Below the pieces are notes generated by a model. The model saw nothing but the letters and a program-made list of their open reading frames with translations. It made no database searches and was not told where the DNA came from. From IMG/VR virus record IMGVR_UViG_3300005613_000019, positions 1 through 64,000 of that record: a stretch of DNA of 64,000 bases. One strand, given 5' to 3'. This document shows, piece after piece, positions 4,153 to 63,159 of the stretch. The position numbers and the translations under genes were made by a program. The stretch is from a virus. Numbering within the stretch: the first letter of the stretch is position 1; each line of letters opens with the position of its first letter.

Positions 4153-7100
4153 TTATCCCCAAATATTAGTTAAACCCCTAACATAGGGTGACACTCCCCT
4201 TATTTTAAGACCTTTTAACGTTAAAGACCTTATTTTAAAATCACTAATATCTCTAATACCTGAGACAGACAACCTTAATTGATGATATCTATAATAATAA
4301 GACCCTACACCATCATTAAAAAGTCTAGCTACTGAGTTTTTATCAACCTCCTCATAAGTATCAAGTAAAACTCCAGCTGATGAATTAGAATTTCTGGTTT
4401 CAAAAGTAACAATAAGATCACTAGTAGGGTATACACGCTTCTCATTATGAGTTAAATAATATTGACCTGAAGTTAAAGCACCCGCATCTATAGAAACTGT
4501 CTTATCATCTTCAAATCTCCAAAACCTGTTAGAAATAATCTTACGCTCAGTAGATCTCTGAACAAACAATTCAGAGGTAGACTTATTCATATCAGATCTA
4601 TTTTCAAGATAAGCCCTGCCGGTTTCAATATTAAAAAACAAAGGAACGGTATTTTCGTATAATCCCTGCTCCTTATCATAACGAGTCCATAAAAAATAAT
4701 CTAAAAACCACACATAATCATCAAAATTAGCCCCTAAATCAAAAACAGGAGTTTCAACCTGATATAAAAGACCATAATCTATTGTAAAAGTTGAAGATAA
4801 ACTAAGATCCCCAGAAACAAACCAAGAAACCGGTATTTGAACAGTATCATTAGCTGAAAATGACCACAAGTCATTAGGCACTGGGATACCATCTTCATAT
4901 AAAATTGCAGAAGTTTGATCTTCATCACAAATATAAGTTAAAGTTGCCTCATAATTTGCACCAACCAATGACAACAACAGAGTTTCCCCCTCTTGAGGGG
5001 GAAACTCTGGATATATATAAGAGAACCTAAAAGGGTCTGAAGAAGATAAGCTAGAGTTAATTAGTCCACACGTTGAAAAATCCGATTCACTTATAGACCC
5101 TACCAAATTAACAGGATCACCGTTTGAGTCATACTCAGTAACATCAAAAATATCTATAGAAGAATGAGCAGGAGAAATCTTTCTAGGCAAACCCTTTTCT
5201 AAACTAGAATCAGATATTATAATAGTTCTTGAAGTAGTAGATGTTATAGAACCAGATAAAACCGGTAAAAAGCTATATATAACATCAATATCAATAGTAG
5301 ACGCATCAGGAGCCGTTAACGTATAAGTTCCATCACTAAGTATAGTAGTCCACCCAGTCATAGGTGGGTATGCAGTGCCATAAGGTTGCCATCTAAATCT
5401 TCGTAAAGACGTTGAAGGATTATATTCATACTCAAACGTACCAGATCCATTAGGAGTCTCTGTAGATATCGCGCTTATCTTGATACCACCGATAACACTA
5501 GATGGAGAAGCTTCTTTATATTCTAAACCTAAATATTTTTGTTCTTGCAAAGTAAGAACTTCAGGAGACCACACCCACATTAATTCACCAAAATATTGAC
5601 GATGTCTATTTCTAGGAACAGTAGCACTATTTAAATATCTTGAAGATATATACTTAATAGTAGCAGATGGTGAATCAATTATAACATCTGAAACTGCACC
5701 TGCTGAAAAAGAACCATAAACGTCAACCGAAATTGCAAGATCTTCAAACACCGACCCAGTAGTTATACCGGCATCGTAAGGAATATCATAATAATCATAG
5801 ATATAAGTATAATCCTCATATCCAGATCCTCCAGCATCGCCCGAAACAGTATAAGACCCTATTGTATTATAACTATTAGCTTGACCATCAAAACTAAGCC
5901 CCAACTCTATAACAAAATTAGGAGACAACAAAGGTTTAACCCACATAGAAATCTCAAGTCTATAACCCTCATAATCATACGCACCAGCGTAACAAGTTTG
6001 AGGATAGCTTTGACCTCTAGGAGCATTATAAAAACTAGGATGCTTTAAAACAGGAATTACAAAATCACACACGTTAGAAGCAGAATCAGCAACTCTTATC
6101 TGAAAAGCTGGTGTAGGATCATAAGGCTCTAATTTAGCAGAAACAACCTCTGAAGGTTGAAAAACTATTGTAGACGTGGCTGAAGGCGTAGTAGGCAACC
6201 AAAGATCTGGATAATCTGTATACCCATCTGTAGCATCATCATACACAGTAACATTATCAGCTGCAATACCAGCCGGAAGATCATCTACCGTAACATTAAC
6301 CCAAGCTCCTTGAGTTTGTTGACATGCTTCTATATATCTTGTAAATCTTAAAATATAAGAAGTCGTATTAATAAGAGGGCTAGTACTAAGCTCATCAAAA
6401 TCAACATAAACTTCCAACTCATTTAAATCATTATCTGTTATAGTATAATTACCTGATTCAGTAAAAACAGTATAAGGACCAAACGACCCTCCAGGACAAG
6501 CCCAGCGGGCTTCATATACAACAGGACCAGCTAAATATACATACTGAACACTAGCAGGACCGTCATATTTCATAGCAACGCCGTTAACTTTTAATACCGT
6601 TATTCCAGGAATCGTATTAGTACCAGCAGGCATGTCCTTAATGACAGAACCAAACTTAATATCACCAGGTTTAATTCCAAAAAGCTCAGATGCTACTGAA
6701 AAAGTAGTAAAACTACCACTAGAACAAACCTTTACAGATCCTCCAGCAATTTGAGACTCAATTAAAACCTTAGTATTATAAACAGATGCTGCAGCAGCAT
6801 GAGCGATAGAATATACAGGATCAGCACCCAAAGCAGTATTGATATCTAAAACAACATTAGCTGGAGTAGGATTAGGACAACCTGTATTCAAAGTTATATC
6901 AATAATACCTAATGAATCAATATCTAAATAAATATGACTACCAGCAGCTACCGTATAAGGCGTAACTGATACATCTCTACCTAAAATCCATGCAGGTTTT
7001 GTACTAACAGGACCTGGCAAAAAAACTTCACCATCCTTAGGAATAGTTGATAAGCCTGCACTTCCGTTTGGAATCCAACTTAAATATGTACCATCCCAAG

Positions 7101-7851
7101 ATAATGAATGAGGAACACCAGGACTAGACACAACATCAGGTTCTACCTTAACTATATCAACACCAGTTACGTTATTTGTAGCTTTAGTTACAGTATGAGC
7201 CCTATCTAACAACCTATGATTTGAAAAAAAGTTTTGATCTAAAACCCAATTAGGACCCCATTTTCTACGAGAATAGCCAAAGGGCTCAACTTGAACTATT
7301 TCAGCAACAACCTCATTAAATCCTTTAAATTTACCACCATAATCCCTAAAAGCACAAGTAAACTCCTTTAACTGATTTCTATAAACACCTAAATCTTGAC
7401 CTATATCATTATAAAAATCAAAATGTCTTCCACGAGCATCTCTTAATGATTCAATCTCAGCAGTATCTATAGAAATATTACTACTAGCTTGAATTATATT
7501 ACTATCAATTACTTCAAGGACCTCAGCATAAGAAGCCAACCAAGTAGCATACTCTCTAATTGATAAATAAACAAAAACCCTAGTACCTGCAGGACTCTCT
7601 AAAGCAACTTCTACCTCTCCTAGAGGTAGAAGTCTTTCAAATTCAACATTACCTTGAGAATCTGATATAACATGTCCTGTATATATTTCATTAACATATA
7701 CGCCATATTTTGTATTAGCTATTGATACTTCTAGTCTAAATTCGGTATTGTCTGACCTATATGGTAAGACAATACCTTCATTTCTATAAAAAACACCTCC
7801 AATTATACCATTAACTAAATCAGCATATCTACTAACAGATGGAAAAGTCAT
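4153..7851 (-). CDS. Large baseplate/tail protein
   Basis: A 1232-residue protein between the J-like baseplate gene and the tail spike, so probably a baseplate-periphery or fibre-connector protein. The first 130 residues include a small beta domain (NTEFRLEVSIANTKYGVYVN, VFVYLSIREYATW). After a helical linker (residues 110-150) there are several beta-rich modules. Around residues 300-390 there is a module (ANVVLDINTAL, then a Leu-Phe-Gly-Ile segment) resembling modules in the sheath and in the 401-residue neck protein. It abuts the upstream gene: stop of one and ATG of the next are adjacent at 7851/7852. No enzymatic motif seen. Three residues-level features cannot be assigned to a named family. 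Confidence 0.6.
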   Translation of the reverse strand: MTFPSVSRYADLVNGIIGGVFYRNEGIVLPYRSDNTEFRLEVSIANTKYGVYVNEIYTGHVISDSQGNVEFERLLPLGEVEVALESPAGTRVFVYLSIREYATWLASYAEVLEVIDSNIIQASSNISIDTAEIESLRDARGRHFDFYNDIGQDLGVYRNQLKEFTCAFRDYGGKFKGFNEVVAEIVQVEPFGYSRRKWGPNWVLDQNFFSNHRLLDRAHTVTKATNNVTGVDIVKVEPDVVSSPGVPHSLSWDGTYLSWIPNGSAGLSTIPKDGEVFLPGPVSTKPAWILGRDVSVTPYTVAAGSHIYLDIDSLGIIDITLNTGCPNPTPANVVLDINTALGADPVYSIAHAAAASVYNTKVLIESQIAGGSVKVCSSGSFTTFSVASELFGIKPGDIKFGSVIKDMPAGTNTIPGITVLKVNGVAMKYDGPASVQYVYLAGPVVYEARWACPGGSFGPYTVFTESGNYTITDNDLNELEVYVDFDELSTSPLINTTSYILRFTRYIEACQQTQGAWVNVTVDDLPAGIAADNVTVYDDATDGYTDYPDLWLPTTPSATSTIVFQPSEVVSAKLEPYDPTPAFQIRVADSASNVCDFVIPVLKHPSFYNAPRGQSYPQTCYAGAYDYEGYRLEISMWVKPLLSPNFVIELGLSFDGQANSYNTIGSYTVSGDAGGSGYEDYTYIYDYYDIPYDAGITTGSVFEDLAISVDVYGSFSAGAVSDVIIDSPSATIKYISSRYLNSATVPRNRHRQYFGELMWVWSPEVLTLQEQKYLGLEYKEASPSSVIGGIKISAISTETPNGSGTFEYEYNPSTSLRRFRWQPYGTAYPPMTGWTTILSDGTYTLTAPDASTIDIDVIYSFLPVLSGSITSTTSRTIIISDSSLEKGLPRKISPAHSSIDIFDVTEYDSNGDPVNLVGSISESDFSTCGLINSSLSSSDPFRFSYIYPEFPPQEGETLLLSLVGANYEATLTYICDEDQTSAILYEDGIPVPNDLWSFSANDTVQIPVSWFVSGDLSLSSTFTIDYGLLYQVETPVFDLGANFDDYVWFLDYFLWTRYDKEQGLYENTVPLFFNIETGRAYLENRSDMNKSTSELFVQRSTERKIISNRFWRFEDDKTVSIDAGALTSGQYYLTHNEKRVYPTSDLIVTFETRNSNSSAGVLLDTYEEVDKNSVARLFNDGVGSYYYRYHQLRLSVSGIRDISDFKIRSLTLKGLKIRGVSPYVRGLTNIWG
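4978..5009. repeat. Intragenic hairpin, 15-bp arms
   Basis: Perfect inverted repeat inside the 1232-residue gene: arms 4978-4992 and 4995-5009, separated by 2 nt. The arms encode a PEFPPQEGET segment. Confidence 0.85.
7607..7633. repeat. Intragenic hairpin, 12-bp arms
   Basis: Perfect inverted repeat near the 5' end of the 1232-residue gene: arms 7607-7618 and 7622-7633, loop 3 nt. Confidence 0.8.
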
Positions 7852-10724: not shown

Positions 10725-11240
10725 TTATACGTCTAACCCTTCAACAACCATCCTCTGATATAAAGCATCCTCAATTACAACATTACAAGCAACTAAAGTA
10801 GCTTTAGTTGCTTCCCAATATTGTAATAATTTATCAAAATAAGTTAAAACACTAATAGATGCTTGATATTTTTCTTTATATGTTTTAAAAAATGAAAAAG
10901 AATCTATTAAAGCAATTACTGGACTAACAAAATAATTATAAAATTCAGGACACAACGCCATAGGAGGTCCAATTTTTTGAACAGCACCTAACAAAGTATT
11001 TTTAAGTTCATTTAAAATACCCTCTAAAAAAGACCATACAAAATCTATAAGAGCATTCCAAATATCAAGTTGTGCAATTATCGCCCTTAACTCCAAAATC
11101 TTAGCATCTATTAACGCAATAAGTGTAGTTACTAAAGTTTGTAGCATTCTTAAAACCGTAGCAGCTAAAGTATAAAAAAAGTTAACAACACACCTTGCTA
11201 AAATATTTGCAGACTCTAATGCAGCAGTACCAACAGTCAT
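10725..11240 (-). CDS. Hydrophobic helical baseplate-region protein
   Basis: A 171-residue, strongly hydrophobic helical protein (VVNFFYTLAATVLRMLQTLV at residues 20-39, further hydrophobic helices at 45-85 and 105-120). It has no charged signal peptide at its start. The helices look amphipathic as much as transmembrane. It lies between the spike-adjacent 246-residue protein and the gp25-like wedge protein, so a tail-assembly or baseplate role is likely. Family not recognised. Near its 3' part lies a 12-bp hairpin. Confidence 0.6.
   Translation of the reverse strand: MTVGTAALESANILARCVVNFFYTLAATVLRMLQTLVTTLIALIDAKILELRAIIAQLDIWNALIDFVWSFLEGILNELKNTLLGAVQKIGPPMALCPEFYNYFVSPVIALIDSFSFFKTYKEKYQASISVLTYFDKLLQYWEATKATLVACNVVIEDALYQRMVVEGLDV
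10787..10813. repeat. Intragenic hairpin, 12-bp arms
   Basis: Perfect inverted repeat: arms 10787-10798 and 10802-10813, loop 3 nt, near the 3' end of the hydrophobic baseplate-region gene. Confidence 0.85.
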
Positions 11241-11244: not shown

Positions 11245-11985
11245 TTACCCTATCGTGTAGTCTGAACCGCCAATAGTGGCAGTCCCGCCACTATTGGCGG
11301 TATGTATCACATCTGCTAATTTGTCCATAGCATCTTCCTTAGAAATATTACCATTTAATTCAATATAGTCATTATTATAGTCTATAGCACTTTGTATAGT
11401 ATTCTCTAAACCTGACAAAATTCCAGACGGCTTCGTTACAGCAGTAGCTGATGGAAAGTAATCCGAAGGATTACTTTCCATCTCTGACCACCACGCCTCA
11501 ATACCATCTGACAATTTACCGGCAAAAGACCCATCTGAAGTAATACCAACCATAGCAGAAGACATAACAGATGTTAGAACACTTATATTAGTAGGACTAA
11601 GTTGAGAAACAATAGTATAATCTCCTACTAAAGTACTAACGGAAGACTGACCTAATAAATCGTCAGTTTCAATATAATTATCAGAAAAAAATGATGATAA
11701 AAATATTCCAGTCTCGTTAGTTAAATTACACATAATTGAAATACTAGTTCCGGTAGAATCTCCAGCCCCAGTAATAGTATTGACTCCAACCTTTAAGTAT
11801 GTTGCCATGTCGGTTATATAAGATGGATTATAAGAAGTAGTAGAATCTAAAGAAGACATCTGAAAATAAGAGGCCCACGTTTGAGACCACGTCAAGGCTA
11901 CATTAGCATCATAAGGCTCAACGTAATTTAAAGATATATTTACCAATAAAGACTTTAAAAGATTCTTTGTTAACAACGTAGACAT
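11245..11985 (-). CDS. Hypothetical baseplate-region protein
   Basis: A 246-residue protein whose ATG overlaps the stop of the spike gene by one base (11985), so it is translationally coupled to it. The first 80 residues look helical; the rest is Ser/Thr/Gly-rich. The C-terminus (GGTATIGGSDYTIG) is encoded by a 15-bp hairpin. A second 15-bp hairpin lies in the centre. Position between spike and wedge genes implies a tail or baseplate role. No family recognised. Confidence 0.6.
   Translation of the reverse strand: MSTLLTKNLLKSLLVNISLNYVEPYDANVALTWSQTWASYFQMSSLDSTTSYNPSYITDMATYLKVGVNTITGAGDSTGTSISIMCNLTNETGIFLSSFFSDNYIETDDLLGQSSVSTLVGDYTIVSQLSPTNISVLTSVMSSAMVGITSDGSFAGKLSDGIEAWWSEMESNPSDYFPSATAVTKPSGILSGLENTIQSAIDYNNDYIELNGNISKEDAMDKLADVIHTANSGGTATIGGSDYTIG
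11266..11301. repeat. Intragenic hairpin, 15-bp arms
   Basis: Perfect inverted repeat: arms 11266-11280 and 11287-11301, loop 6 nt. It encodes the C-terminal residues of the 246-residue protein. Confidence 0.9.
11450..11482. repeat. Intragenic hairpin, 15-bp arms
   Basis: Perfect inverted repeat: arms 11450-11464 and 11468-11482, loop 3 nt (GAA), inside the 246-residue gene. Confidence 0.9.
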
Positions 11986-13370
11986 TATTCAGTAAACACC
12001 TTCGTAGACAGAACCAACTGAGTCTTTGCCGGAAGAAAATTAAGCCCATATTGAATCGCAAAATCCGCAGATGGTCCAGTAGGTCCAACTGCTGATGGGT
12101 GTGTATGAGCTAATAACGCCGACATTAAAAGATCAAATAATATTTTCCACTGATTCCCTTTTACTAACCCCTCAATCACACCATCTTTACCTAAATGAAC
12201 CAAAGCATCGCTTGACACAACGGTTTTAATAGAACTATCTAAAACCGAAGTAGTTTCAGAGCTTGCAGTAAAACCAGCCGTAGCACTTAAGTCCATAGTA
12301 GAATTTGAAGTTAAACTCAAACCTGTAGACGTTACATCAAAAGTACCAGTAGAAGTTATTTCAGTGCTTAAGTTACTAACCTCCCAGGATGCTAAAGGTG
12401 TTGACCATTTAAAAGAAGTAGCTATACTAGACTCCAGAGAATAATTACCTAAAGCATCTACAGTCTCTAGGTAGGTTTTTAAGTTATCTGTAGGGTCAGC
12501 AGCATTAGGTAAATAAAATATGTATCTAACAGGCCCGTTATCTCCCTGCAACAAGTCATACCCTGTAACGCCCGCTGTCGGGCTTAAATCATCAACCACG
12601 TCACCTATCGCAAAATAAGCTACACGCCCTCCAGGAGGGCGTGTAGCTTCTCCTGAGCCCCAGTTAATCTCTACAGTGTATTCTTGAGCTACAGTACTAA
12701 CCCTTGAAGGATTAGATACGTCTGCAGCTATCGTAATATAGCTCTCAGACGTATCTGTAGCTAAAGCTCTCCTCTTCACGGACCCGTACCTGGTCTGTGA
12801 AGAGGAGGCCGCGCCTACTAATAATGGTGAAGAAATGACAGTTTCTTGAGCTGTCTGGTCTAAGGTTATAGCACAATTTGAAGATGATAAATTAATTTTA
12901 TCACCTAAATAAAACATACAACCTCTACTAGATTTAAAATCCCAGTCACCTGGTTTTAGAGTCTTACCAGAAGCAGAACTCCACCCTATGCCTCCTTTAG
13001 ACTCTTTTGCTGAGTCAACAACTGTATAGCTAGTGTAATAAGAAGTAGAATATCCAAACAAATGAAAAGTACCATCAGTTCCATAAGCTCCGATCATAAC
13101 ATCCCCAACTTGAGGAATATACCTCCCCCAGCCTGCTGAAGTGTAATCACGATCTCTACGATTAACAGCGTCAGGAGGACAAGATAAGCCTAATAGCGGT
13201 ATGGTAGCAGTAGTACTTACTGATAGATTTAAAAAAGTAATGCTAACCGTACCCTTTTCAACATTGACATCGGTAACCTGTACTCTGTTTATTTTACTAT
13301 AAACAGATTCATCAAAGCCTTTTCTATTACCTAAAGACCCTGCGCTAGGTATATTAGCCCTGCTTCCCAT
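11985..13370 (-). CDS. Baseplate spike, OB-fold (gp5/gpV/gp45-like)
   Basis: A 461-residue protein. Residues about 25-130 form an OB-fold-like beta domain of the phage spike type (INRVQVTDVNVEKGTVSITF, then YIPQVGDVMIGAYGTDG, then HLFGYS). Residues about 325-400 are a Ser/Thr-rich beta repeat (TSTGTFDVTSTGLSLTSNS) of the kind that forms the triple beta-helix of puncturing spikes. Such proteins trimerise at the baseplate centre and pierce the outer membrane. The start overlaps the stop of the hub gene at 13370. No lysozyme domain is visible; cell-wall cutting is probably done by the tape-measure-linked hydrolase at 17.0-17.8 kb. Confidence 0.75.
   Translation of the reverse strand: MGSRANIPSAGSLGNRKGFDESVYSKINRVQVTDVNVEKGTVSITFLNLSVSTTATIPLLGLSCPPDAVNRRDRDYTSAGWGRYIPQVGDVMIGAYGTDGTFHLFGYSTSYYTSYTVVDSAKESKGGIGWSSASGKTLKPGDWDFKSSRGCMFYLGDKINLSSSNCAITLDQTAQETVISSPLLVGAASSSQTRYGSVKRRALATDTSESYITIAADVSNPSRVSTVAQEYTVEINWGSGEATRPPGGRVAYFAIGDVVDDLSPTAGVTGYDLLQGDNGPVRYIFYLPNAADPTDNLKTYLETVDALGNYSLESSIATSFKWSTPLASWEVSNLSTEITSTGTFDVTSTGLSLTSNSTMDLSATAGFTASSETTSVLDSSIKTVVSSDALVHLGKDGVIEGLVKGNQWKILFDLLMSALLAHTHPSAVGPTGPSADFAIQYGLNFLPAKTQLVLSTKVFTE
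12617..12649. repeat. Intragenic hairpin, 16-bp arms
   Basis: Perfect inverted repeat in the spike gene: arms 12617-12632 and 12634-12649 with one central base. Confidence 0.9.
12769..12807. repeat. Intragenic hairpin, 16-bp arms with one G-T pair
   Basis: Arms 12769-12784 and 12792-12807, loop 7 nt, in the spike gene. All pairs are Watson-Crick except one G-T. Confidence 0.8.
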
Positions 13371-16207
13371 TATTTATCCCCACCCTGTCTATTAGTATCT
13401 TTTTTAGATCTAGACATCATATTAACCCAATTAAAGCTCTTCTCGTTATCACCAAAATGATGAAACACCGGCTCACCCCAAGGTCTAATTAGACCAGACC
13501 ATCCTCTAACCTGATTCAAGTTAATAGAGGTTGAAACATCGTTATTCCATGAGATATTATGCGAACAGCTTACGATGTTCGCATAATAATTTCTATATCT
13601 CCAAAATATCGGCCTATTAACCATTAAACCAAATTTTGGAATTGTCTCCAATCCTATATTTCTAGCTTCTGAATTTATCTGTTTTAGTTTCAAAGCTGAC
13701 AAAAGCCTACCTTCGGAGGGGGTGTCAACATAAGATTCAACCGCTCCGTCCATAAGCCTAAATCCTAAAGTTGGAATTAAAGTTTTATCCACGGCATAGA
13801 CAAACTGTTGAGCAGAGTCTACATCGCCACCTAACCACAAATTCATATTATGAGGCTTAACCCTATACACGGTTAATAATCCTTTATCAGAATTTGTATT
13901 ACTATAACTTAGCTGCTCATCAATACCTACAGAGAAATGATCTCTATATTTAAAAACAGGTCTATTCAAAAAATCTATAAGGTCTTGGTCATCTGTGTTC
14001 AATTCCAAGACGAGCTGAGTTAAATCTTCAGCTTCAGCATAACTTCCAGAATACTTCTGAGCAAACACTTTTTCATATGTTTCTAGTTTCTCATATGGCG
14101 TTAACTCAGAATTACTAGAATCACCCGATAAAGTTGTTCCAGGACTAAAGAACTCCGACGGGTCATGATCATACAGAGGGTGTTCAAAAACAAAATCACC
14201 ACGAGGAGTAGCATAAAATCTCCACTCAATAGCCTGAGCCATATCATATAATAAAGAGAGCCTATCCTTAAATACAGAATGGTAGTTGCTTACACCGCCA
14301 AACCCTCTACTCATAATTCCACCCTCATCAAACTCAATTAAGCGAGCAGGGGCTAGATAAAATACCCTACCATGACCTACTGGATAATTCTTGAGATCTT
14401 TCCCTATTAAGTCTACAATTTGCTCCGTATTAAAATTAGACGCCTTAGCTAAAGCTGAGTTATTTATATTATCAGGATTAGATCTCTCAGCTTGGGTATT
14501 CCTATTCGTAGCTGACGGATCATATTTCATAGTCTCTAGGTCAGACTCTCTTACCCTATGATGTAGGATTTCATTCCATTGCCAAAAGTTGTCTAGTTTA
14601 ATAGCACCCAAACTTAAATCATACTCGTCAGGCTCACCGTAAACATAAAATCCTACCCCAAACCTGTCAGAATTCCTCTTAAATGGAATATCACCGGGCG
14701 AAGTCATGGCCTGCCAACCTATATTCTTAATACTCTTATACGTAGCGGTTATAGTCTCATTAAATTCAACGTTAGAATATTCCTTAAGTTTTGAAACTAT
14801 CGTCTCATAAGTGTTCTCAACATCGTTATTTTGATAAATAGTATCCTGTATCTGCTCAGCCGATAATCCGAACTTATCCAAATAAAGCATCAAAGCTTCT
14901 TCATTGGATATTTGAACATAAGAATAGTCTGAGTCTTGCTGCTCATCCTTAGACGGGTCGCCCTCTACACTTATGTTTCCAGTATAATATTTCTTATTTA
15001 ATTTTGAAAACTCAAGACCTGGAAATCTAGCTGCGATTGAAACCTTAGAAGCTGAATCAGCGCCGAAAAAGTTAAGTTCAAGAACTTCAGCGACTCTTAA
15101 ACCTGAAAAAATCTCCTTAGTCAGCCTTAAATTACTTTGTTCAGACGGAGCAGAACCAACGTCATTAATAGACTTAAATAACTTCTCGATATTAGCATCA
15201 ACAAGCCCTGTTCTTACCTGAGATACAGTATACCTAGCCGTTTTAGAAACATCCGTGCAAGTAATATTAAGTACAGAATCTAGGTTAACACCCATATCTT
15301 CCGTCCACGTATCCATAAACCCCGTAAACATCCAATACCAAACACGAGGATCAAACGGATCTCTGAAGGCTACCCTTACAGGATCATTCAAATTGAATAT
15401 ACAATCACCCTCTTGAAACGGATAATTAAACACTGTCCCCTCTTGGGCATTAACAACTTTGATAACCTCCCCATATTCAGGCGGTTCCATGTATTGGCTA
15501 TTACCGTCTCCTAAAATCTTACTTCTTGCAACTTCATCTTTTATTGAGTAGTTTAAATCATCCTCACCTAACTCACCTAATACAAAATCCTTAGATCCAA
15601 ACTCAAGTAAACTTCCATTAGGAACATCTATTTTAGCGTTAGTTATGACTGAAGCTATAGCCTCAGCGTCAGCTAAAGAATTTATAGTAATTCCCTCAGC
15701 TTCTAATAAATATCTTACCTCATCATCGGTTGAAGTTGCTAAACGCAACTTCAACTCACTGAACTTATCACCGCTCATTGAACTCAAATATGTAGAAACT
15801 TGACCTGATAAATTCTGATCTAGCCCTGAACCTAATTCAAACGGATTTCCTGCATAAGGATTAGTATACTCATACCCAAAGTTACTTGGATCATAGGACT
15901 TTAAATACTCACTAGGAGTCTGAACAGTAATACCACTCTTACCACGATCTATAGATGCTTTCCACGACCCTATAATAACCATGTTTTTATGGGTTAATGT
16001 ATATTTCTCTCTTGGGTTAGCTAAAGTAATTGCACAAGTACTAGGCGATCTTTCTAAGCTACCACCGGACTGATTAACTCTAACTGAGATAACATCGCCG
16101 CTTATATCATACCCGTAAATAAATACTTTAAAAGCAGGGAAAGCGGCCCGGTATCTAGTATCTATAGATATTTCATCAATATTTTTTAGAACATCAGTGT
16201 AAGCCAT
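13370..16207 (-). CDS. Baseplate hub protein (gp27/gpD-like, large)
   Basis: A 945-residue protein immediately upstream of the spike gene, the usual place for the hub. The N-terminus (FKVFIYGYDISGDVISVRV at residues 26-44, then CAITLANP) resembles the first beta domain of hub proteins, with the DVISV strand typical of late-control-D-like proteins. The segment near residue 655 (LSLLYDMAQAIEWRFYATPR followed by GDFVFEHP) matches the pattern of a hub domain that handles a fibre-like beta strand. At 945 residues it is much longer than gpD (about 390) or T4 gp27 (391), so extra domains are present. It probably forms the trimeric hub that joins tube, spike and wedges. Confidence 0.7.
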   Translation of the reverse strand: MAYTDVLKNIDEISIDTRYRAAFPAFKVFIYGYDISGDVISVRVNQSGGSLERSPSTCAITLANPREKYTLTHKNMVIIGSWKASIDRGKSGITVQTPSEYLKSYDPSNFGYEYTNPYAGNPFELGSGLDQNLSGQVSTYLSSMSGDKFSELKLRLATSTDDEVRYLLEAEGITINSLADAEAIASVITNAKIDVPNGSLLEFGSKDFVLGELGEDDLNYSIKDEVARSKILGDGNSQYMEPPEYGEVIKVVNAQEGTVFNYPFQEGDCIFNLNDPVRVAFRDPFDPRVWYWMFTGFMDTWTEDMGVNLDSVLNITCTDVSKTARYTVSQVRTGLVDANIEKLFKSINDVGSAPSEQSNLRLTKEIFSGLRVAEVLELNFFGADSASKVSIAARFPGLEFSKLNKKYYTGNISVEGDPSKDEQQDSDYSYVQISNEEALMLYLDKFGLSAEQIQDTIYQNNDVENTYETIVSKLKEYSNVEFNETITATYKSIKNIGWQAMTSPGDIPFKRNSDRFGVGFYVYGEPDEYDLSLGAIKLDNFWQWNEILHHRVRESDLETMKYDPSATNRNTQAERSNPDNINNSALAKASNFNTEQIVDLIGKDLKNYPVGHGRVFYLAPARLIEFDEGGIMSRGFGGVSNYHSVFKDRLSLLYDMAQAIEWRFYATPRGDFVFEHPLYDHDPSEFFSPGTTLSGDSSNSELTPYEKLETYEKVFAQKYSGSYAEAEDLTQLVLELNTDDQDLIDFLNRPVFKYRDHFSVGIDEQLSYSNTNSDKGLLTVYRVKPHNMNLWLGGDVDSAQQFVYAVDKTLIPTLGFRLMDGAVESYVDTPSEGRLLSALKLKQINSEARNIGLETIPKFGLMVNRPIFWRYRNYYANIVSCSHNISWNNDVSTSINLNQVRGWSGLIRPWGEPVFHHFGDNEKSFNWVNMMSRSKKDTNRQGGDK
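13555..13588. repeat. Intragenic hairpin, 13-bp arms
   Basis: Perfect inverted repeat near the 3' end of the hub gene: arms 13555-13567 and 13576-13588, loop 8 nt. Confidence 0.85.
15729..15755. repeat. Intragenic hairpin, 11-bp arms
   Basis: Perfect inverted repeat in the hub gene: arms 15729-15739 and 15745-15755, loop 5 nt. Confidence 0.75.
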
Positions 16208-16219: not shown

Positions 16220-17005
16220 TTATGAAAAATTCTTACCAAGTGGGTTAGTAAATAAATTTCTAAGATTGTTTACTATGTTAGGATATAAATAATCCATAGA
16301 AGGCTTAGACGCTAAAGCTGTAAATCCAAACGAATAACTAATATTATAAGGATTGTTAGCAACCTCAGAAAAATCCAAAACCTTATTAAAATGACCAATT
16401 AAAGTTATATAACTATTTCCTAATAAAGGACTTGCATAAGAAATATAATAATACACAGGCTGTCCAGTTTTAGGATCTACTACAGGCTCCCTAGTAATTG
16501 AATATAAATTCCAAAATGACGCTAATTTAGCAGCTCCTGAAACAGCATAATCAGATCCTTGCAACATAACCCTCAAATCCTCGTTCTCTACTTGAGTAGT
16601 ACCATCCGATACCCTATTCAACCACTCTATAGGACCCCTACCTTGAATTTGAGACCTAAACTGACCATATATACCATTCATTACAGTAGCCGTCTTTATA
16701 TTAATATTACCCGTTTGCCCCGAAAAGTTAACATCTAATACGTCATTGTTTCTTCCAGACCTGTTAGACCAATGATAAAATACAGCACCACTCTGTGTGT
16801 CTTTTCTAGTTATTCTTTTGGCTTGAGTAAATGCTACAGTATTAGGATTTACACGCATGGATACACCGTGTATACCTAACCTCTTCCTGTAGGAAGAGGT
16901 TAGGTATAATGGAACCCTCAAAGACTTATCTTCATAAGGGTTAAAAGACTTCTCTATTACTTTAGAAAAATCAGAAATTAAATTACTTGATTCTGTTACA
17001 GCCAT
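16220..17005 (-). CDS. Tail/baseplate hub-proximal protein
   Basis: A 261-residue protein between the tape-measure and hub genes. Tail-tube initiator or hub-tube adaptor proteins are commonly found at this position. Visible: a basic N-terminal half (YRKRLGIHGVSMRVNP, ITRKDTQSG), then a compact C-terminal domain with aromatic beta strands (VYYYISYASPLLGNSYITLI). It contains the longest perfect hairpin of the window near its start codon region. No family is assigned with confidence. Confidence 0.6.
   Translation of the reverse strand: MAVTESSNLISDFSKVIEKSFNPYEDKSLRVPLYLTSSYRKRLGIHGVSMRVNPNTVAFTQAKRITRKDTQSGAVFYHWSNRSGRNNDVLDVNFSGQTGNINIKTATVMNGIYGQFRSQIQGRGPIEWLNRVSDGTTQVENEDLRVMLQGSDYAVSGAAKLASFWNLYSITREPVVDPKTGQPVYYYISYASPLLGNSYITLIGHFNKVLDFSEVANNPYNISYSFGFTALASKPSMDYLYPNIVNNLRNLFTNPLGKNFS
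16871..16908. repeat. Intragenic hairpin, 18-bp arms (longest)
   Basis: Perfect inverted repeat: arms 16871-16888 and 16891-16908, 2-nt centre. It lies about 100 nt downstream of the start codon of the 261-residue gene and encodes the VPLYLTSSYRKRLGIHG segment. Confidence 0.95.
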
Positions 17006-44355: not shown

Positions 44356-44853
44356 TTAGTCTTTCTCAATCATTAAATATATAGAATCAAATGACTCTTT
44401 AGTCATATTATCAGGAAGGTTCAATTCATTTATTGAAAATAAATGCAATTGAACCTCTGAGTCCCCTATATAATAAAACTCATACCATTTTTGTTTCTTA
44501 AGTTTTACTTCAGCTAACAAGTCTTTATAGTCTTCATTAAAATTTAACAATAATGTTTTGACTTCATCTTCAAAACCCTGCATTATTTGTAACTTACCGT
44601 TAGCCCTCACATAAGAACCATCTACTTTTACTAAATAAGAGTCTAATAATTCGAGTCTTTTTTGATCATACTGTAAAGATTCTTCAGTAGGCTCAAGAAA
44701 ACTATCTCGAATTTGAATCAAATTCTCTACCTCTTTTTTAAGAATTTCAATGTTTTGCTGTATTTTTATATGAACAGCAACAGCGCACTTTATTTGTGCG
44801 CTGTTGCTGGAAGTGAGGAATTCCAATAATTTTTGAACTTCAAAGTTTTTCAC
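44356..44853 (-). CDS. Hypothetical helical protein upstream of the portal gene
   Basis: A 165-residue protein starting at GTG (44853), with GGAG 9 nt upstream. It is helical, with heptad-like Lys/Glu/Leu segments (IEILKKEVENLIQIRDSFLE, VKTLLLNFNEDYKDLLAEVK). It lies between the 1481-residue protein and the portal gene. Two hairpins lie in the gene: 14 bp near its 5' end and 17 bp near its 3' end. Family not recognised; possible head-assembly factor. Confidence 0.55.
   Translation of the reverse strand: MKNFEVQKLLEFLTSSNSAQIKCAVAVHIKIQQNIEILKKEVENLIQIRDSFLEPTEESLQYDQKRLELLDSYLVKVDGSYVRANGKLQIMQGFEDEVKTLLLNFNEDYKDLLAEVKLKKQKWYEFYYIGDSEVQLHLFSINELNLPDNMTKESFDSIYLMIEKD
44417..44456. repeat. Intragenic hairpin, 17-bp arms with one bulge
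   Basis: Arms 44417-44433 and 44439-44456, loop 5, one bulged C, in the 165-residue gene. Confidence 0.85.
44775..44809. repeat. Intragenic hairpin, 14-bp arms
   Basis: Perfect inverted repeat: arms 44775-44788 and 44796-44809, loop 7 nt, near the start of the 165-residue gene. Confidence 0.9.
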
Positions 44854-51167: not shown

Positions 51168-51992
51168 CTAACCGTAATGATTAAAACCATCCCTAATAAG
51201 CAAAAAAGAAGTAGAAACAGTTACATTAGTATCATTAACATTCACATTCATACGAGGTATAAAGTCAGTTCCAGCAGTTAGAGGTATTGGAATTTCAAAT
51301 TTTTGTGTAGAAACACTTGTACCGTTTGTTGTAATAGATCCTTCATCAACTAACCTAGAATATTTACCATAATCCCTAACATAAATTCTTAATTCAGCGA
51401 AATTAGCAACTTTAGTTACTAAGCTAACTCTACTCCACAAAACATACGCAGTATAATTAGCAGGACATGTAAATAAAGCATTAAGGAAATTATTTTTACC
51501 GTTATTTGCGTAAGCTTTTACATCCGTATCTACATCAGGTTTACCATTAGTAATTCCGTTTATTGCTACAGCTGCAGAGCTGTAGCAATAAACGTCTCCA
51601 GCAAAGCCTGTACCTACTGACGGAGTTGTAGAAGAATCTTCATTAGTTAAACTAAATACTCTGCACAACGGAGTTGTTAAAGAAGCTGTAGTTTGACCTG
51701 TCAAATTAATATCTTGAACAGTCCAATTTAAATTAGCATCTAATCCTATTATATTAACTGGTTGAGTATCACCATTATCATCACTAGATATACTATCAAT
51801 TATTGCACTACCGTCATTAGAAAAAGTATAATTAGTATCTCCTAAAGACGCACTTCCATATTCCCAAACATCATGAAACACAGCATCATTATCTATAGTT
51901 GTTTTACCAAACTGGTTCCAGGTGAAAGCACCTGGAACCAGTCCTCTTGAAACACGATGAATATAACCTGGCTTAAAGGGTAAACCTATCAT
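51168..51992 (-). CDS. Putative fibre or decoration protein (274 residues)
   Basis: A 274-residue protein rich in Asn, Ser and Thr with a beta-sandwich character (CPANYTAYVLWSRVSLVTKV, RIYVRDYGKYSRLV). Its ATG overlaps the stop of the 183-residue gene at 51992. Two hairpins (17 and 14 bp) lie in its DNA. Function not recognised; its place in the fibre block suggests a virion surface protein. Confidence 0.55.
   Translation of the reverse strand: MIGLPFKPGYIHRVSRGLVPGAFTWNQFGKTTIDNDAVFHDVWEYGSASLGDTNYTFSNDGSAIIDSISSDDNGDTQPVNIIGLDANLNWTVQDINLTGQTTASLTTPLCRVFSLTNEDSSTTPSVGTGFAGDVYCYSSAAVAINGITNGKPDVDTDVKAYANNGKNNFLNALFTCPANYTAYVLWSRVSLVTKVANFAELRIYVRDYGKYSRLVDEGSITTNGTSVSTQKFEIPIPLTAGTDFIPRMNVNVNDTNVTVSTSFLLIRDGFNHYG
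51557..51594. repeat. Intragenic hairpin, 17-bp arms
   Basis: Perfect inverted repeat: arms 51557-51573 and 51578-51594, loop 4 nt, in the 274-residue gene. Confidence 0.95.
51911..51942. repeat. Intragenic hairpin, 14-bp arms
   Basis: Perfect inverted repeat: arms 51911-51924 and 51929-51942, loop 4 nt, near the start of the 274-residue gene. Confidence 0.9.
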
Positions 51993-54516: not shown

Positions 54517-54567
54517 TAAAAATCTCCAAAAACTAAATGTAAAAAGATACAATTAACCTTATAAAAG

Positions 54568-57234: not shown

Positions 57235-57996
57235 TTAAATCTCTATCAAAAACTCCTCTTTATAATGACCTTTATTATTATATTCAAAAGGATAACCCCA
57301 AGGATTACAATAAATTTTAGTATTTCCTATCTTATAATCAAAATAATAATGAGTATGCCCACATAACCATAAATTAGGCTCAGTCTTAAGCATCGTCTCT
57401 GACATATCTACATAAAAACCTCCATTTATAGATGAACTTCTATAAATGTCGGGTATGACTGAAGTAGTAGGAACATGATGAGTTACAACTACAGTTTTAT
57501 CATTTTTATTTATGCTCTTATTAAGCCAATCTCTATCTTTCCTATGTTCCGTTAATATATCATAAGTATCTACAGTCATAATCTCACAATCATCATTTAC
57601 TTTATTAATCTTCCTATAATCTGGAAAAGAATAATACACTTCACTCTCACCCCTACGATTATCAAAATCAGTCCATAAAGTAGTGCCTAAAAAAGTAACA
57701 TCGTCTATTTTAACTGAAGACCTAGACAAAATATGTATATTTTCAAACTTAGCAGCAACCGACTGTAAGTCGGTTGCTGCTTTATTCAAAAATCTATTAT
57801 AATAGTCATGGTTTCCCAAAACCATGACTACAGGCATATTATAATTTACCCTAAGTTCTTTAAAATATTTTCTAAGCCTTTTACGACTAGAATCAATATC
57901 TCCAGCCATTACAAGCACGTCTGCCTCGTCTGAAATACGAGGCAGACGTTTATGCTCAAAAATTAAATGTAAATCTGATAATAGTTGTATTTTCAT
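57235..57996 (-). CDS. Calcineurin-like metallophosphoesterase
   Basis: A 253-residue protein with all metal-binding motifs of the superfamily: D8-x-H10 (LSDLHL), G32-D33 (MAGDID), G61-N62-H63-D64 (LGNHDYYN), H173-H174 (VTHHVP) and G213-H214-x-H216 (CGHTHYY). It acts on phosphoesters in the cytoplasm; substrate is unknown (nucleic acid, nucleotide or protein). It is the first gene of a small cassette with a consensus sigma70 promoter. Three perfect hairpins lie in it, one of which covers the GNHD motif. Confidence 0.9.
   Translation of the reverse strand: MKIQLLSDLHLIFEHKRLPRISDEADVLVMAGDIDSSRKRLRKYFKELRVNYNMPVVMVLGNHDYYNRFLNKAATDLQSVAAKFENIHILSRSSVKIDDVTFLGTTLWTDFDNRRGESEVYYSFPDYRKINKVNDDCEIMTVDTYDILTEHRKDRDWLNKSINKNDKTVVVTHHVPTTSVIPDIYRSSSINGGFYVDMSETMLKTEPNLWLCGHTHYYFDYKIGNTKIYCNPWGYPFEYNNKGHYKEEFLIEI
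57751..57781. repeat. Intragenic hairpin, 14-bp arms
   Basis: Perfect inverted repeat: arms 57751-57764 and 57768-57781, loop 3, in the metallophosphoesterase gene. Confidence 0.9.
57803..57830. repeat. Intragenic hairpin over the catalytic GNHD codons
   Basis: Perfect inverted repeat: arms 57803-57814 and 57819-57830, loop 4. The arms encode VVMV and the catalytic NHD. Confidence 0.85.
57917..57949. repeat. Intragenic hairpin, 13-bp arms
   Basis: Perfect inverted repeat: arms 57917-57929 and 57937-57949, loop 7, in the metallophosphoesterase gene. Confidence 0.9.
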
Positions 57997-58061: not shown

Positions 58062-60245
58062 CTATTTCTTTATGTTTTTAAAATTAGGCATTGCTACACC
58101 GTAGGAACGACCCCCAGTAGCAAGTTGTCGTTGAAGAAGTTGAGCTTTTCTACCTTGAGGCTCATTAACAACAGAAGATTTAATAACACTATTTAGACCT
58201 ACAAGGCACCTTGCTAAGTCGTCAGACCCTCTACCTCTAACCTTACCCTTCTTACTAGGTGAGATTATCTTCCTCAAGTCTTCGCTTCTCTCAAGTCTTA
58301 AAGATTCGAGCAAACAGACACCCTCACCTGACATCTCTTCCTCGTTTCTAGTCATCTGAATGGTACCTTGAGGGCTCAAAGAAAAACCATCTGAGAGGGC
58401 AGGAGGAAGCAAGCTAACTTGATCGTTATAAACTTGAGTTCTAAAGGACATAAAATCCTGCATTCTAATACTATACCTGTTAGCTGCGATTCCTAAAGAC
58501 CTAATATTCTGTATTGCATTTGCAGAGTTCCAAGCGTCAAACCATACTCCAGCTATATGTATCTTCTTAGATAATTCTTTTATAATATCTGTTACTGAAT
58601 TAAAATAAATCTCTCTAGATCTAGTAGGAACAATTCTAATACAAAAATCAACTACCGTAATTAGTCTATCTAACGATTGCGGATCTGGATAAAATGGTTT
58701 ACCTCCTACTAAAACTCTACCTTTGGACCTTGGAGAATCTTTAGCTGATGGTAAACTAGATAATAAAATTCTACCATCACCGTAAGGTCCAGGATCTCTA
58801 GTTTTTATACCTTTACTTTCAACTTGATAATCCCCCTCATCTTTTAGTTCAGGATGACCACATACTATGGCAAAAGAGTCAAATGTTAAACCGGCATCTA
58901 AAAACATATAATGATAGTTTTCAAAATCATAATTTACAGATTCTAAATTCAAACCTACATATTGTTTTCCTGTTTTATCAGTTATATTAACGTCTCTAAA
59001 AGCAGCTATAGGCTCACGATCATAGCGCACACAACTCCAAAACCTTAAAGGTTGATCAAATAGAGGACTTTGAGCTGCTGGAGGATCTGCAGCGAAGTCT
59101 CGTTGTGCAGCTACTGGATCTTTAATAAACTCCTCGTCAAAGTTCTTTCTTTTTTGTTCAGGATTAAATTCCCAAGTAGCACCTTTCCAAAAAAAAGTTC
59201 TCTTAAGCTCTCCGTGTTCTGCTTTATTATAAAGCTGCATAGCTATGTCATCAATTGACATAGGACTAGTAACATTAATCATGAGTCCTAAGAATGGAAA
59301 TAAATTATAGTTGTCAACCGAGGATCTTACAGTTTTTAAGGACTGGTTTATAACTCGATACAACTCTTGTGCAGAGGTCTTTGCCTCAGTATGCGATAGA
59401 CGAGCAAGCTCGTCTATCGCTCCAAGGATACGAGTCCTACCTGCAACACCGCCTGAGTTTGAAGAAATTCTGTTAAATCTTACCTGAAGCCACCCGTCTA
59501 TTACAGAGTCTTCAAGAACTTTATACTCCCATGGATCTAAAGAACCTAATTGTTGTTTCTCTTTTCCTTTAACCCATCTAACATGTCTGTTAATCCAAGG
59601 AGAATTATCCCTCATTCCTCTATATTTAGCATAAATAGTATTCTTAGCCTGCTCAGCAGTTGAAGCAGCAAACGTTACTTCAAACCATTCAGATTTCTCT
59701 TGCCTCAAGTATCTCTGCAACGCAAATCTACCTTCGGTAGATTTTACCCTTAAACAATGCTCAATATATCCTCCTATATGAGCACCTAAATAAGACTTAC
59801 CGGATCTCATTCCAGCAATACAAATTAACTCATTATATGGAGTTATGACACCGTCATAAATTAAACCCTGCATCGAATTTTTACAAGACGGGCATTCAAA
59901 ATCATTAATTTGAGAATTCCAAACAAACAAGTTTTCTGACTCAAGATAAGATCTAGATTTATTCCAACAATCCATAGCTTCAGGATCTTGAGAATTACAA
60001 AAAGGACATCTTAAATTAAACATATCCCTTAAAATTTGATATTGACGCCAATATCTAAAAGTTGAAGGTACATTCCAATAATCAAGCCCTGTAACCCATT
60101 CAACAATATTTGGGGCAGGTTTTAACAAATAAGACCTTTCAGAGTCTAAGGATATATCTAAACCTGTTACACGATCATCTATTAGATCCTCTATGTCTTT
60201 AATAAAACTTTTCTTCATGTTATACATTTCTACAGTCTTAGCCAT
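58062..60245 (-). CDS. Terminase large subunit
   Basis: A 727-residue packaging ATPase/nuclease. An N-terminal zinc site (C80, C83, C118, C121) precedes the Walker A motif GMRSGKS at 145-151 and the Walker B ILGAIDEL (273-280, D278/E279). The nuclease half shows YMFLDAGLTFDS (D450), VWFDAWNSAN (D570) and a C-terminal GSDDLARC-type acidic pair near 690. It drives DNA packaging and cuts concatemers at the portal. Its size is larger than T4 gp17 (610). The zinc insert near the ATPase N-terminus is a noteworthy addition. It is preceded by small genes and a small-terminase candidate. Confidence 0.92.
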   Translation of the reverse strand: MAKTVEMYNMKKSFIKDIEDLIDDRVTGLDISLDSERSYLLKPAPNIVEWVTGLDYWNVPSTFRYWRQYQILRDMFNLRCPFCNSQDPEAMDCWNKSRSYLESENLFVWNSQINDFECPSCKNSMQGLIYDGVITPYNELICIAGMRSGKSYLGAHIGGYIEHCLRVKSTEGRFALQRYLRQEKSEWFEVTFAASTAEQAKNTIYAKYRGMRDNSPWINRHVRWVKGKEKQQLGSLDPWEYKVLEDSVIDGWLQVRFNRISSNSGGVAGRTRILGAIDELARLSHTEAKTSAQELYRVINQSLKTVRSSVDNYNLFPFLGLMINVTSPMSIDDIAMQLYNKAEHGELKRTFFWKGATWEFNPEQKRKNFDEEFIKDPVAAQRDFAADPPAAQSPLFDQPLRFWSCVRYDREPIAAFRDVNITDKTGKQYVGLNLESVNYDFENYHYMFLDAGLTFDSFAIVCGHPELKDEGDYQVESKGIKTRDPGPYGDGRILLSSLPSAKDSPRSKGRVLVGGKPFYPDPQSLDRLITVVDFCIRIVPTRSREIYFNSVTDIIKELSKKIHIAGVWFDAWNSANAIQNIRSLGIAANRYSIRMQDFMSFRTQVYNDQVSLLPPALSDGFSLSPQGTIQMTRNEEEMSGEGVCLLESLRLERSEDLRKIISPSKKGKVRGRGSDDLARCLVGLNSVIKSSVVNEPQGRKAQLLQRQLATGGRSYGVAMPNFKNIKK
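59393..59420. repeat. Intragenic hairpin, 13-bp arms
   Basis: Perfect inverted repeat: arms 59393-59405 and 59408-59420, loop 2, in the terminase gene. Confidence 0.9.
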
Positions 60246-60503: not shown

Positions 60504-60791
60504 TTAAACTCTTTTCAAAATAAAGTTTGTTACAATTATCTCCTTAGTAATACTACGTATTTTTAATTTATTTAAATCTGAAGGAATTTTATATTTGACT
60601 CCGTCAATATAAAATTCATATCCTAAAACATTAGTACAGTAATATTTCAAAACTTTTAAAACAGCTACATTAAAAAACTCAGCCCCTTTTTTATAAGAAG
60701 CTGAGTTTACTAAAATCATCCTGCCTACCGATTTTCCTTTATCGTTCCTAATTAAAGCATCTTGTTGATATGAATTTGTTTCTAAAACCAT
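60504..60791 (-). CDS. Hypothetical protein (95 residues)
   Basis: A 95-residue protein (MVLETNSYQQDALIRNDKGK start) with mixed beta-like segments (VGRMILVNSASY, VLGYEFYIDGVKYKI). It is two bases from the small-terminase candidate. Not recognised. Confidence 0.5.
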   Translation of the reverse strand: MVLETNSYQQDALIRNDKGKSVGRMILVNSASYKKGAEFFNVAVLKVLKYYCTNVLGYEFYIDGVKYKIPSDLNKLKIRSITKEIIVTNFILKRV

Positions 60792-61673: not shown

Positions 61674-62102
61674 TTAACTAGAATTGTTATTAATTAATTG
61701 TCTTAATAACTCTTTTAATTCTTTTTGACTGTCTAAATATTTTTGTTTATAAGATTCAAGCTCATCTTCGATGACTTGAATCTTTTCTTTATTAGCATCT
61801 GTCTCATAACTTATTTTATCAACATATCTAAACCAAGCCAAACCTACTGAAATAAAAAACAGGAGTAGGCTGATGCCTACTCCTGCTTGCCAAGTTAACA
61901 TCCTTTTATTCATTTTAGAATTTTCTTTAATTTGATTCTGAAGTGAATCAAATAACGGAAGTTGAGTACATTTATCTTTTTCTAATATTTTAGTTTCTAG
62001 TTTATCCATACGATCATCTAACTTTAAAAATTTACCGTCTACACGTTCTTTATTTAATTCATAAAGTCTCTTTTTTAAAGACTCAGTTGTTGAATCAGAC
62101 AT
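61674..62102 (-). CDS. Membrane coiled-coil protein
   Basis: A 142-residue protein: an N-terminal coiled coil (residues 5-60), one membrane segment (residues about 74-92, AGVGISLLLFFISVGLAWF) and a second coiled coil (residues 100-138). It has no signal peptide. It could be an envelope-associated factor or an accessory lysis protein. It is the first gene of the terminase block and has an extended -10 promoter upstream. Confidence 0.6.
   Translation of the reverse strand: MSDSTTESLKKRLYELNKERVDGKFLKLDDRMDKLETKILEKDKCTQLPLFDSLQNQIKENSKMNKRMLTWQAGVGISLLLFFISVGLAWFRYVDKISYETDANKEKIQVIEDELESYKQKYLDSQKELKELLRQLINNNSS
61860..61885. repeat. Intragenic hairpin, 11-bp arms
   Basis: Arms 61860-61870 and 61875-61885, loop 4, in the membrane coiled-coil gene, over its membrane segment. 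Confidence 0.75.
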
Positions 62103-62229: not shown

Positions 62230-62261
62230 GTCTATCGTATGCCGTTTGGCATACGATAGAC
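62230..62261. repeat. Intergenic hairpin, 14-bp arms
   Basis: Perfect inverted repeat: arms 62230-62243 and 62248-62261, loop GTTT, in the non-coding region. There is no clear T tract on the plus side; T-rich sequence follows on the minus side. Confidence 0.9.
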
Positions 62262-62404: not shown

Positions 62405-62495
62405 AAAACACATTTTTTAAATTTTTCTTTTAAAATTAAGATTTTATATTAAAAAAAGGTAATATAAAAAGTTAGAATCGAGTGAAACGAGATTC

Positions 62496-62960: not shown

Positions 62961-63004
62961 ATTTAAAGCACCTCTCCGCAATTCTATGTTATTAACATAC
63001 TCGT

Positions 63005-63071: not shown

Positions 63072-63127
63072 TAACTCTAAGAGTTGCAATTTTAAGTAAC
63101 TAATATTAATATACCCGGTTTAGTTTA

Positions 63128-63159
63128 AAAACAAGCAACAAATTTTTGTTGCTTGTTTT
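63128..63159. terminator. Bidirectional terminator-like hairpin
   Basis: Perfect inverted repeat: 15-nt arms 63128-63142 and 63145-63159 (AAAACAAGCAACAAA type), flanked by A and T runs, so it could terminate transcripts from both sides. It lies upstream of the plus-strand gene. Confidence 0.7.

Follow-up and report, generated by a model that had tools for sequence, protein, structure and literature searches.

How does the genome of a tailed phage come to hold a large number of perfectly paired hairpins inside intact genes, and what keeps their arms complementary? The question arises from IMG/VR record IMGVR_UViG_3300005613_000019, a metagenome assembly of 98 kb from a dsDNA tailed phage. The window, i.e., the whole stretch of 64,000 nucleotides presented here, comprises positions 1-64,000 of this record, and two further parts, L002 (18 kb) and L003 (16 kb), lie outside it. 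A hairpin was defined as a perfect inverted repeat with an arm of at least 11 bp and a loop of at most 15 nt. An earlier note on this DNA had counted more than thirty hairpins within genes, and this count holds: 36 are present in the window, 34 of them within genes.

Hairpins of the window and the proteins they encode

Arm and loop lengths (bp and nt, respectively) are given in brackets as arm/loop. The left part of the window contains hairpins at 4978..5009 (15/2; in ORF 4153-7851 of the minus strand), 7607..7633 (12/3), 10787..10813 (12/3), 11266..11301 (15/6), 11450..11482 (15/3), 12617..12649 (16/1), 13555..13588 (13/8; within a conserved NYYANIVS stretch), 15729..15755 (11/5), 16871..16908 (18/2), 19597..19632 (17/2) and 23800..23836 (12/13). 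They are followed by those at 27786..27814 (13/3), 27849..27890 (17/8), 30332..30359 (12/4), 31726..31752 (12/3), 32745..32780 (11/14), 33034..33056 (11/1) and 33362..33398 (15/7). The stretch from 34.3 to 40.2 kb holds no arm of at least 11 bp, as had been noted earlier for these capsid, decoration and scaffold genes, and contains a single 10-bp stem at 35779-35811. Hairpins resume at 40959..40991 (14/5), 41477..41506 (13/4), 41683..41716 (15/4) and 42409..42445 (15/7), continue in the portal gene at 43155..43190 (12/12; conserved residues are coded by both arms), 43416..43457 (14/14) and 43603..43625 (11/1), and include one at 44775..44809 (14/7). A second gap (44.8-51.5 kb) spans a gene for a 1481-aa tail protein and the next gene. 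Beyond it lie 51557..51594 (17/4) and 51911..51942 (14/4), three hairpins in a metallophosphoesterase gene, i.e., 57751..57781 (14/3), 57803..57830 (12/4; adjoining the GNHDY motif) and 57917..57949 (13/7), one in the large terminase gene that spans its AIDELARLS stretch (59393..59420, 13/2), 60584..60617 (12/10), 61860..61885 (11/4) and two intergenic hairpins at 62230..62261 (14/4) and 63128..63159 (15/2). The five hairpins singled out in the earlier note (those starting at 12617, 16871, 19597, 27849 and 51557) are all found where it placed them; only the arm length at 19597..19632 needs correction, from 16 to 17 pairs.

The same note had judged chance to be unlikely and had proposed codon-preserving shuffles as a check. 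When the genes were shuffled 1000 times among synonymous codons, with protein and codon usage kept, arms of at least 11 bp occurred on average 0.69 times (maximum 4) vs. 34 in the real coding DNA. The corresponding values are 0.36 (maximum 3) vs. 29 for arms of at least 12 bp and 0.02 (maximum 1) vs. 16 for arms of at least 14 bp. Thus, an origin by chance is rejected by the synonymous shuffles, and dinucleotide shuffles lead to the same conclusion. The whole record holds 97 hairpins, approx. one per kilobase, with arm lengths that are fairly uniform (11-20 bp), and the density is higher beyond the window (22 in the 18 kb of L002 and 39-41 in the 16 kb of L003). Within the record, coding DNA carries 5.4-18.6 hairpins per 10 kb, and the highest density and longest arms are found in the non-coding DNA of L003 (28 per 10 kb, mean arm 14.9 bp).

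The stems are almost purely Watson-Crick and end abruptly, with pairing beyond them at background level. G-U pairs are rare within stems, and they are not enriched at stem ends either (n = 112), where 20 G-U and 15 A-C combinations compare with a ratio of approx. 1.5:1 predicted from composition. Loops measure 2-4 nt in 51 of the 76 hairpins with arms of at least 12 bp and loops of at most 8 nt. None of the typical stable RNA tetraloops was found among the loops, and the hairpins gave no Rfam match. Arm sequences vary from one hairpin to another, and a comparison made without a motif search revealed no common core sequence among arms or loops.

For 29 hairpins aligned to relatives, amino acid identity is 0.44 and 0.45 in the arms vs. 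0.40 in the whole proteins; residues encoded by the arms are as conserved as the remainder of each protein. Asymmetry between the two arms at the protein level lies at a random percentile (0.53), i.e., neither arm looks overwritten. According to a rough estimate, the encoded proteins allow approx. 49 stems of at least 15 bp per 60 kb, compared with 23-38 in relatives. This difference disfavours a purely synonymous origin, and some amino acid changes probably went into the hairpins.

Restriction to a small clade and comparison with a close relative

The trait is restricted to a small clade comprising the record and an IMG/VR contig, IMGVR_UViG_3300017971_000714 (G001), with 77% nucleotide identity. 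No other close relative was found when the terminase, portal, capsid and two other proteins were compared with viral_contigs and the capsid with genome_contigs. Coding DNA of G001 carries 5.1 hairpins per 10 kb, whereas eight more distant relatives have 0-0.29 and the reference phages T4, N4, crAss001, phiKZ and SPO1 have 0-0.24. Hairpins are approx. forty times more frequent in the record and G001 than in related viruses. Even relatives with 65-71% capsid identity have almost no hairpins in coding DNA. Base composition is rejected as a cause, since relatives of similar G+C content (0.34-0.42) lack the trait.

The window and G001 were compared through codon alignments. The earlier note had proposed a comparison of positions with related phages and a test for covariation between arms. 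Many hairpins occupy identical positions in the two genomes, with both arms changed in concert. Compensatory two-sided changes affect 16 of 256 stem pairs (6.2%), compared with 2.8% of random complementary pairs (p 0.002) and 2.9% of slid pairs, and one-sided breaks are depleted (58 vs. approx. 92 expected, p 4e-6). Compensatory pairs also cluster (5 adjacent vs. 1.9 expected, p 0.02), as multi-base copying predicts. For example, in the hairpin at 16871 three adjacent pairs have changed in concert (TAC-CTA vs. TTT-TTA and GGT vs. AAA, i.e., Y to F and G to K), and the stem is perfect in both genomes. Concerted changes that alter amino acids also occur at 32630 and at 33034, where two compensatory pairs (N to D, S to D) lie in the 12-bp stem of G001. 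At 27849, G001 forms a 13-bp stem that includes a compensatory pair, and the hairpins at 27786 (12 bp in G001) and 31726 are kept. Nonetheless, positions turn over and registers shift: the hairpin at 19597 is overlapped by a different one in G001, and that at 30332 is replaced by a 9-bp hairpin shifted by 1 nt. Four-fold synonymous sites are identical in the two genomes at 74% (43/58) within stems vs. 50% (1303/2627) elsewhere (p 1.4e-4), which shows that pairing is maintained, a result that selection would explain just as well. Where only one side of a pair differs between the genomes, the count is 49 G-U and 24 A-C, a weak lean to G-U when set against ratios of approx. 0.9:1 and 1.5:1, depending on direction, that were roughly estimated from a substitution table; this lean leaves room for a role in RNA.

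Origin of the perfect stems

In the literature, template switching between the arms of inverted repeats is recognised by homogenised arms, multinucleotide mutations and inverted spacers (PMC8604942, PMC8794818). The hairpins of the phage combine perfect arms and short spacers with an excess over the codon-preserving null (29 vs. 0.36), and at 16871 and 33034 several bases, including some that alter amino acids, have changed together in both arms. In addition, the record contains a duplicated block (positions 93396-93525 and 94009-94138 of the record), the copies of which share two identical hairpin stems between divergent flanks, and one loop is inverted (CTA/TAG). This is a single case, and no loop inversion was noticed among the stems compared between the window and G001.

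Taken together, the near-pure Watson-Crick stems, their abrupt ends, the amino-acid-altering two-arm changes, the inverted loop and the restriction to one clade favour recurrent DNA template switching that homogenises the arms and is filtered by purifying selection, an explanation that we regard as probable, though well short of certain. The hairpins would then be the footprint of a strong process, acting on DNA, that creates and restores perfect pairing of neighbouring inverted sequences, and its most likely form would be quasi-palindrome correction, i.e., template switching in the course of replication. A nascent strand that has stalled might fold back on, or jump to, a nearby complementary arm, copy approx. 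10-20 nt of it and then return; each such event would perfect one arm or rewrite it so that it matches the other, and a short loop may flip. Events that damage the protein would be purged by purifying selection, with survivors where both arms code for acceptable residues. The peak in non-coding L003 is in line with this, since no protein filter operates there. The rate might be raised by an altered replication or repair machinery of the clade, encoded in a part of the genome beyond the record, or by the host; the genomes of relatives measure approx. 160-210 kb. Among the four causes that the earlier note had listed without ranking, template-switch correction of quasi-palindromes has gained the most support. 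Some observations nonetheless speak against it: arms stop at approx. 20 bp, though run-away copying might go further; the loop inversion was seen once; no directional signature was found, as neither arm looks overwritten at the protein level; and a causal replication gene is absent from the record, which lacks the polymerase module (no polymerase of family A, B or C was found on it). Strand skew gave no clear result on polarity with respect to replication direction.

The stems might instead be functional: selection may keep perfect hairpins of DNA (or RNA) throughout the genome, approx. one per kilobase and within genes, for example to prime single strands, to allow recombination or to shield the phage from a nuclease of the host. 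Such a reading seems possible though doubtful. In its DNA form, cruciforms or single-strand hairpins would act in replication (as single-strand initiation or primase sites approx. every kilobase), recombination, packaging or nuclease avoidance. The Watson-Crick stems without clear G-U preference, the short loops, the uniform arms, the density of approx. one hairpin per kilobase over the record and the compensatory and synonymous patterns all agree with such elements. However, relatives sharing 65-71% of capsid residues manage almost without them in coding DNA, arms and loops compared without a motif search share no core sequence, positions and registers drift between two close genomes, 6-kb gaps interrupt the window, and neither loop inversion nor amino-acid-altering concerted change is predicted, so that we consider this form unlikely. 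RNA structures in long mRNAs, serving processing, stability or translation pausing and maintained because changes compensate each other in the transcript, would likewise account for the compensatory changes and synonymous conservation, and they find some encouragement in the lean to G-U (49 to 24) and in the hairpin at 33362, where all three one-sided differences from G001 are G-U in mRNA. Yet G-U is rare in stems and not enriched at their ends, tetraloops and Rfam matches are lacking, non-coding DNA is filled with stems at higher density, and radical replacements such as G/K accompany stem changes. Selected RNA structures are thus quite improbable, and the suggestion of RNA processing or stability sites in the earlier note gains no clear support.

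A further alternative holds that the hairpins are mobile or inserted palindromic elements, comparable to REP or to the palindromic elements of Rickettsia, or that they arose as an artefact of assembly or amplification. The record is a metagenome assembly, and at 12617..12649 the phage protein has 1-4 residues that relatives lack, which makes a small insertion possible at this site. However, alignments with relatives run through nearly all hairpins and need few indels, and residues typical of the family are encoded by both arms, which indicates that the hairpins are not inserted elements; the arms also differ in sequence among hairpins. The in-frame palindromic elements considered earlier are rejected on these grounds. 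Moreover, a separate contig, 23% diverged, has stems at matching positions that have changed in concert, and thus an assembly artefact is rejected as well. For most hairpins, this reading is refuted by the orthologous stems of G001, and as a general account it is extremely improbable.

Relation to known systems and significance

Several known classes of hairpins were considered. Intrinsic terminators of SPO1 and phiKZ are also perfect, GC-containing hairpins with short loops, and T tracts follow several hairpins of L003, which are terminator-like. However, the perfect stems of SPO1 and phiKZ are intergenic, whereas 34 of the 36 hairpins of the window are intragenic, and terminators do not account for them as a class. 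Nor do the hairpins belong to a REP- or RPE-like class, given that homologues align through most of them and that the arms differ in sequence. N4-type hairpin promoters have a stem of 5-7 bp and a 3-nt loop and are used by a virion RNA polymerase. The arms described here are longer (11-20 bp), N4 itself shows no such excess, and no RNA polymerase was found among the proteins scanned, which represent part of the ORFs.

Coding palindromes in the mitochondria of Nematomorpha (Nucleic Acids Res. 2019, PMC6649704) come closest to the hairpins of the phage. There, too, many perfect inverted repeats lie in intact genes, with conserved protein coded by both arms; identity is mostly all-or-none, palindromes are gained and lost between species, and arm conversion or template switching has been proposed as the cause, as here for the phage. 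However, the mitochondrial arms reach 284 bp in organelle genomes of approx. 15 kb, whereas the phage has arms of 11-20 bp and loops of mostly 2-8 nt, with approx. 100 hairpins per 98 kb in one small clade of dsDNA tailed phages. Template switching at short inverted repeats has been described in yeast genes (Sci Rep 2021, PMC8604942) and RNA genes (PNAS 2022, PMC8794818), and the creation and repair of perfect stems is common to these cases and the phage. Those events are spread over many genes (68 yeast genes, with arms mostly of 7-11 bp) or limited to RNA genes, whereas in the phage an entire viral genome would bear their imprint, with approx. one stem per kilobase.

Template switching between the arms of inverted repeats is known as a rare mutation. 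If the explanation favoured here is true, it occurs, or is tolerated, so often in one small clade that an entire viral genome is reshaped together with its proteins, which points to a change in replication or repair that should be sought. With two genomes that share orthologous stems, the origin and upkeep of perfect stems can be tested directly. If the stems are selected instead, a genome-wide hairpin code would be new.

Hairpin excess in coding DNA

A listing of perfect inverted repeats in the window, for a minimum arm of 11 bp and a loop no longer than 15 nt, gives 36 (41 if the loop limit is raised to 30 nt), and 34 of the 36 are located within reading frames. When the same genes were shuffled 1000 times, each protein and its codon usage being kept, the mean was 0.69 repeats (maximum 4) compared with the 34 real ones; for arms of at least 12 bp, the figures were 29 real vs. 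0.36, and for arms of at least 14 bp, 16 vs. 0.02. The earlier note's observation of more than thirty perfect hairpins within coding sequence, in excess of chance, stands, and the five hairpins that it quoted are all present in the full listing. The gap that it reported over the capsid genes is also present. This is one of two blocks without hairpins, the other being a gene (44922-49367) for a 1481-aa tail protein with laminin-G-like domains; by our estimate the chance probability is a few percent for each gap, both having been chosen post hoc. The capsid gap may reflect strong constraint and the tail-gene gap recent acquisition; the tail protein, for which no homologue was found among the relatives fetched, is possibly a recent arrival.

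The record runs to 97,991 bases, of which the window covers the first 64 kb; the other 34 kb is even richer in perfect repeats, with 22 in its 18-kb part (L002) and 39-41, depending on the loop limit, in its 16-kb part (L003). Arms in these parts reach 20 bp, at about which hairpin arm length tops out. Non-coding DNA of L003 has 28 hairpins per 10 kb (mean arm 14.9), compared with 5.4 (mean arm 13.6) in coding DNA of the window. At L003 6926-7075 (record 88926-89075), 33-base tandem repeats surround a perfect 18-bp hairpin (6926-6962), and promoter-like sequences recur at the same spacing. A diverged repeat family occurs in both orientations at record 78421-79146, 84188-84961, 86694-86915 and 87664-88413.

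The virus is a tailed phage, with matches for capsid (phrog_2522), portal (phrog_16240) and terminase (phrog_17415) and a weak match for baseplate J. The record also encodes an RNA ligase, an ATP-dependent DNA ligase, a D12 adenine methyltransferase and two trypsin-like proteases (L003 176-901 and 4896-5471); a family A polymerase, carried by six of nine records searched, is absent from it. Two proteins (window 49404-50795 and 53077-54552) have a common C-terminal phrog_12121 match, and these ends are apparently paralogous. The only named relative of high similarity is Virus Rctr197k (capsid 55%, terminase 34%), from an enrichment culture labelled DAMO/AAA. Because larger IMG/VR relatives are approx. 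160-210 kb, the record is probably a fragment.

Hairpins within the protein code

Distant relatives could be aligned across 29 hairpins. Identity to them is 44% and 45% for the residues that the two arms encode, compared with 40% for whole proteins, and gaps are uncommon. This argues against insertion, and the small in-frame palindromic elements suggested previously are not borne out. Overwriting of one arm at the protein level was likewise rejected, as the difference between arms equals that of randomly placed segment pairs from the same genes (percentile 0.53). Judged from these alignments, the hairpins are thus written into the protein code, not added to it. For example, hairpins (named by their start in the window) coincide with a conserved NYYANIVS stretch (13555), a YLTSSYR stretch (16871), AIDELARLS of the terminase (59393) and GLSKSFMTGE of the portal (43155).

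Concerted change and its possible cause

The one close relative found, G001 (IMGVR_UViG_3300017971_000714; L008 and L088, 25.7 kb), is colinear with this phage at 77% identity. In a codon-level alignment, 256 stem pairs were mapped, and the proposal that arms be checked for co-variation can be answered: 16 pairs (6.2%; interval computed by hairpin, 3.0-9.6%) changed on both sides to another Watson-Crick pair, compared with 2.8% of distance-matched random complementary pairs (p 0.002) and 2.9% of slid controls, while one-sided breaks numbered 58 vs. about 92 expected (p 4e-6), both p-values treating pairs as independent. Neighbouring compensatory pairs numbered five vs. 1.9 expected (p 0.02), and four-fold synonymous sites are 74% identical in stems vs. 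50% elsewhere (p 1.4e-4).

Pairing may be kept by selection, which would also predict compensatory change and synonymous conservation. Step-by-step compensation does not readily explain hairpin 30332, where both genomes have a hairpin at one spot with registers offset by one nucleotide, or 19597, where they have different, overlapping hairpins. Some concerted two-arm changes alter proteins. At 16871, TAC CTA ... GGT here corresponds to TTT TTA ... AAA in G001 (Y/F, G/K), so that three adjacent pairs are swapped and the stem is still perfect; since most outgroups have Y and several have G, G001 is probably the derived state. At 33034, two pairs differ, with N/D and S/D. Within the record, a duplicated block (93396-93525 and 94009-94138; L003 11396-11525 and 12009-12138) has two hairpins whose stems are identical between copies, with about ten differing positions outside the stems and one loop inverted (CTA/TAG).

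The hairpins read as mainly DNA-level features, with an RNA contribution possible. Pairing ends abruptly at stem ends, the first mismatch beyond being a random draw (20 G-U and 15 A-C of 112), and G-U is absent from most long stems. No typical stable RNA loops occur among the hairpin loops, and Rfam gave no match for the hairpins. One-sided differences between genomes lean weakly to G-U (49 vs. 24, where our estimated nulls are about 0.9:1 and 1.5:1). Taken over the record as a whole, hairpins have an A+C-rich 5' arm (0.575, interval 0.547-0.606) and a G+T-rich 3' arm, a bias that holds also where genes are on the + strand; flanks are A-rich on the 5' side and T-rich on the 3' side.

Template switching between inverted-repeat arms is recognised by arms that have become homogenised, by multinucleotide changes that replace amino acids, and by inverted spacers (PMC8604942); it can both generate perfect stems and keep them perfect (PMC8794818). 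For coding palindromes of hairworm mitochondria, a function-free conversion process was proposed because the arms are nearly always perfect (PMC6649704), and the same reasoning applies here. Observed directly are the excess of hairpins, their restriction to a clade, their persistence, the concerted changes, the purity of Watson-Crick pairing and one loop flip; template switching during replication would be the cause.

A trait of a small clade

Coding hairpins number 5.1 per 10 kb in G001, whereas the figure is 0-0.29 in eight more distant relatives, including some at 65-71% capsid identity and with similar G+C. In T4, N4, crAss001, phiKZ and SPO1 the range is 0-0.24, and almost all perfect stems of these phages are intergenic. 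In one distant relative, G016 (L127, L128), the five perfect stems present (mean arm 16.6) are all non-genic, with none in coding DNA. Given the high value in G001 and the near-zero values in the distant relatives and five reference phages, the trait was therefore gained in a small clade or lost outside it. Within that clade, the rate of template switching, or tolerance of its products, would have risen.
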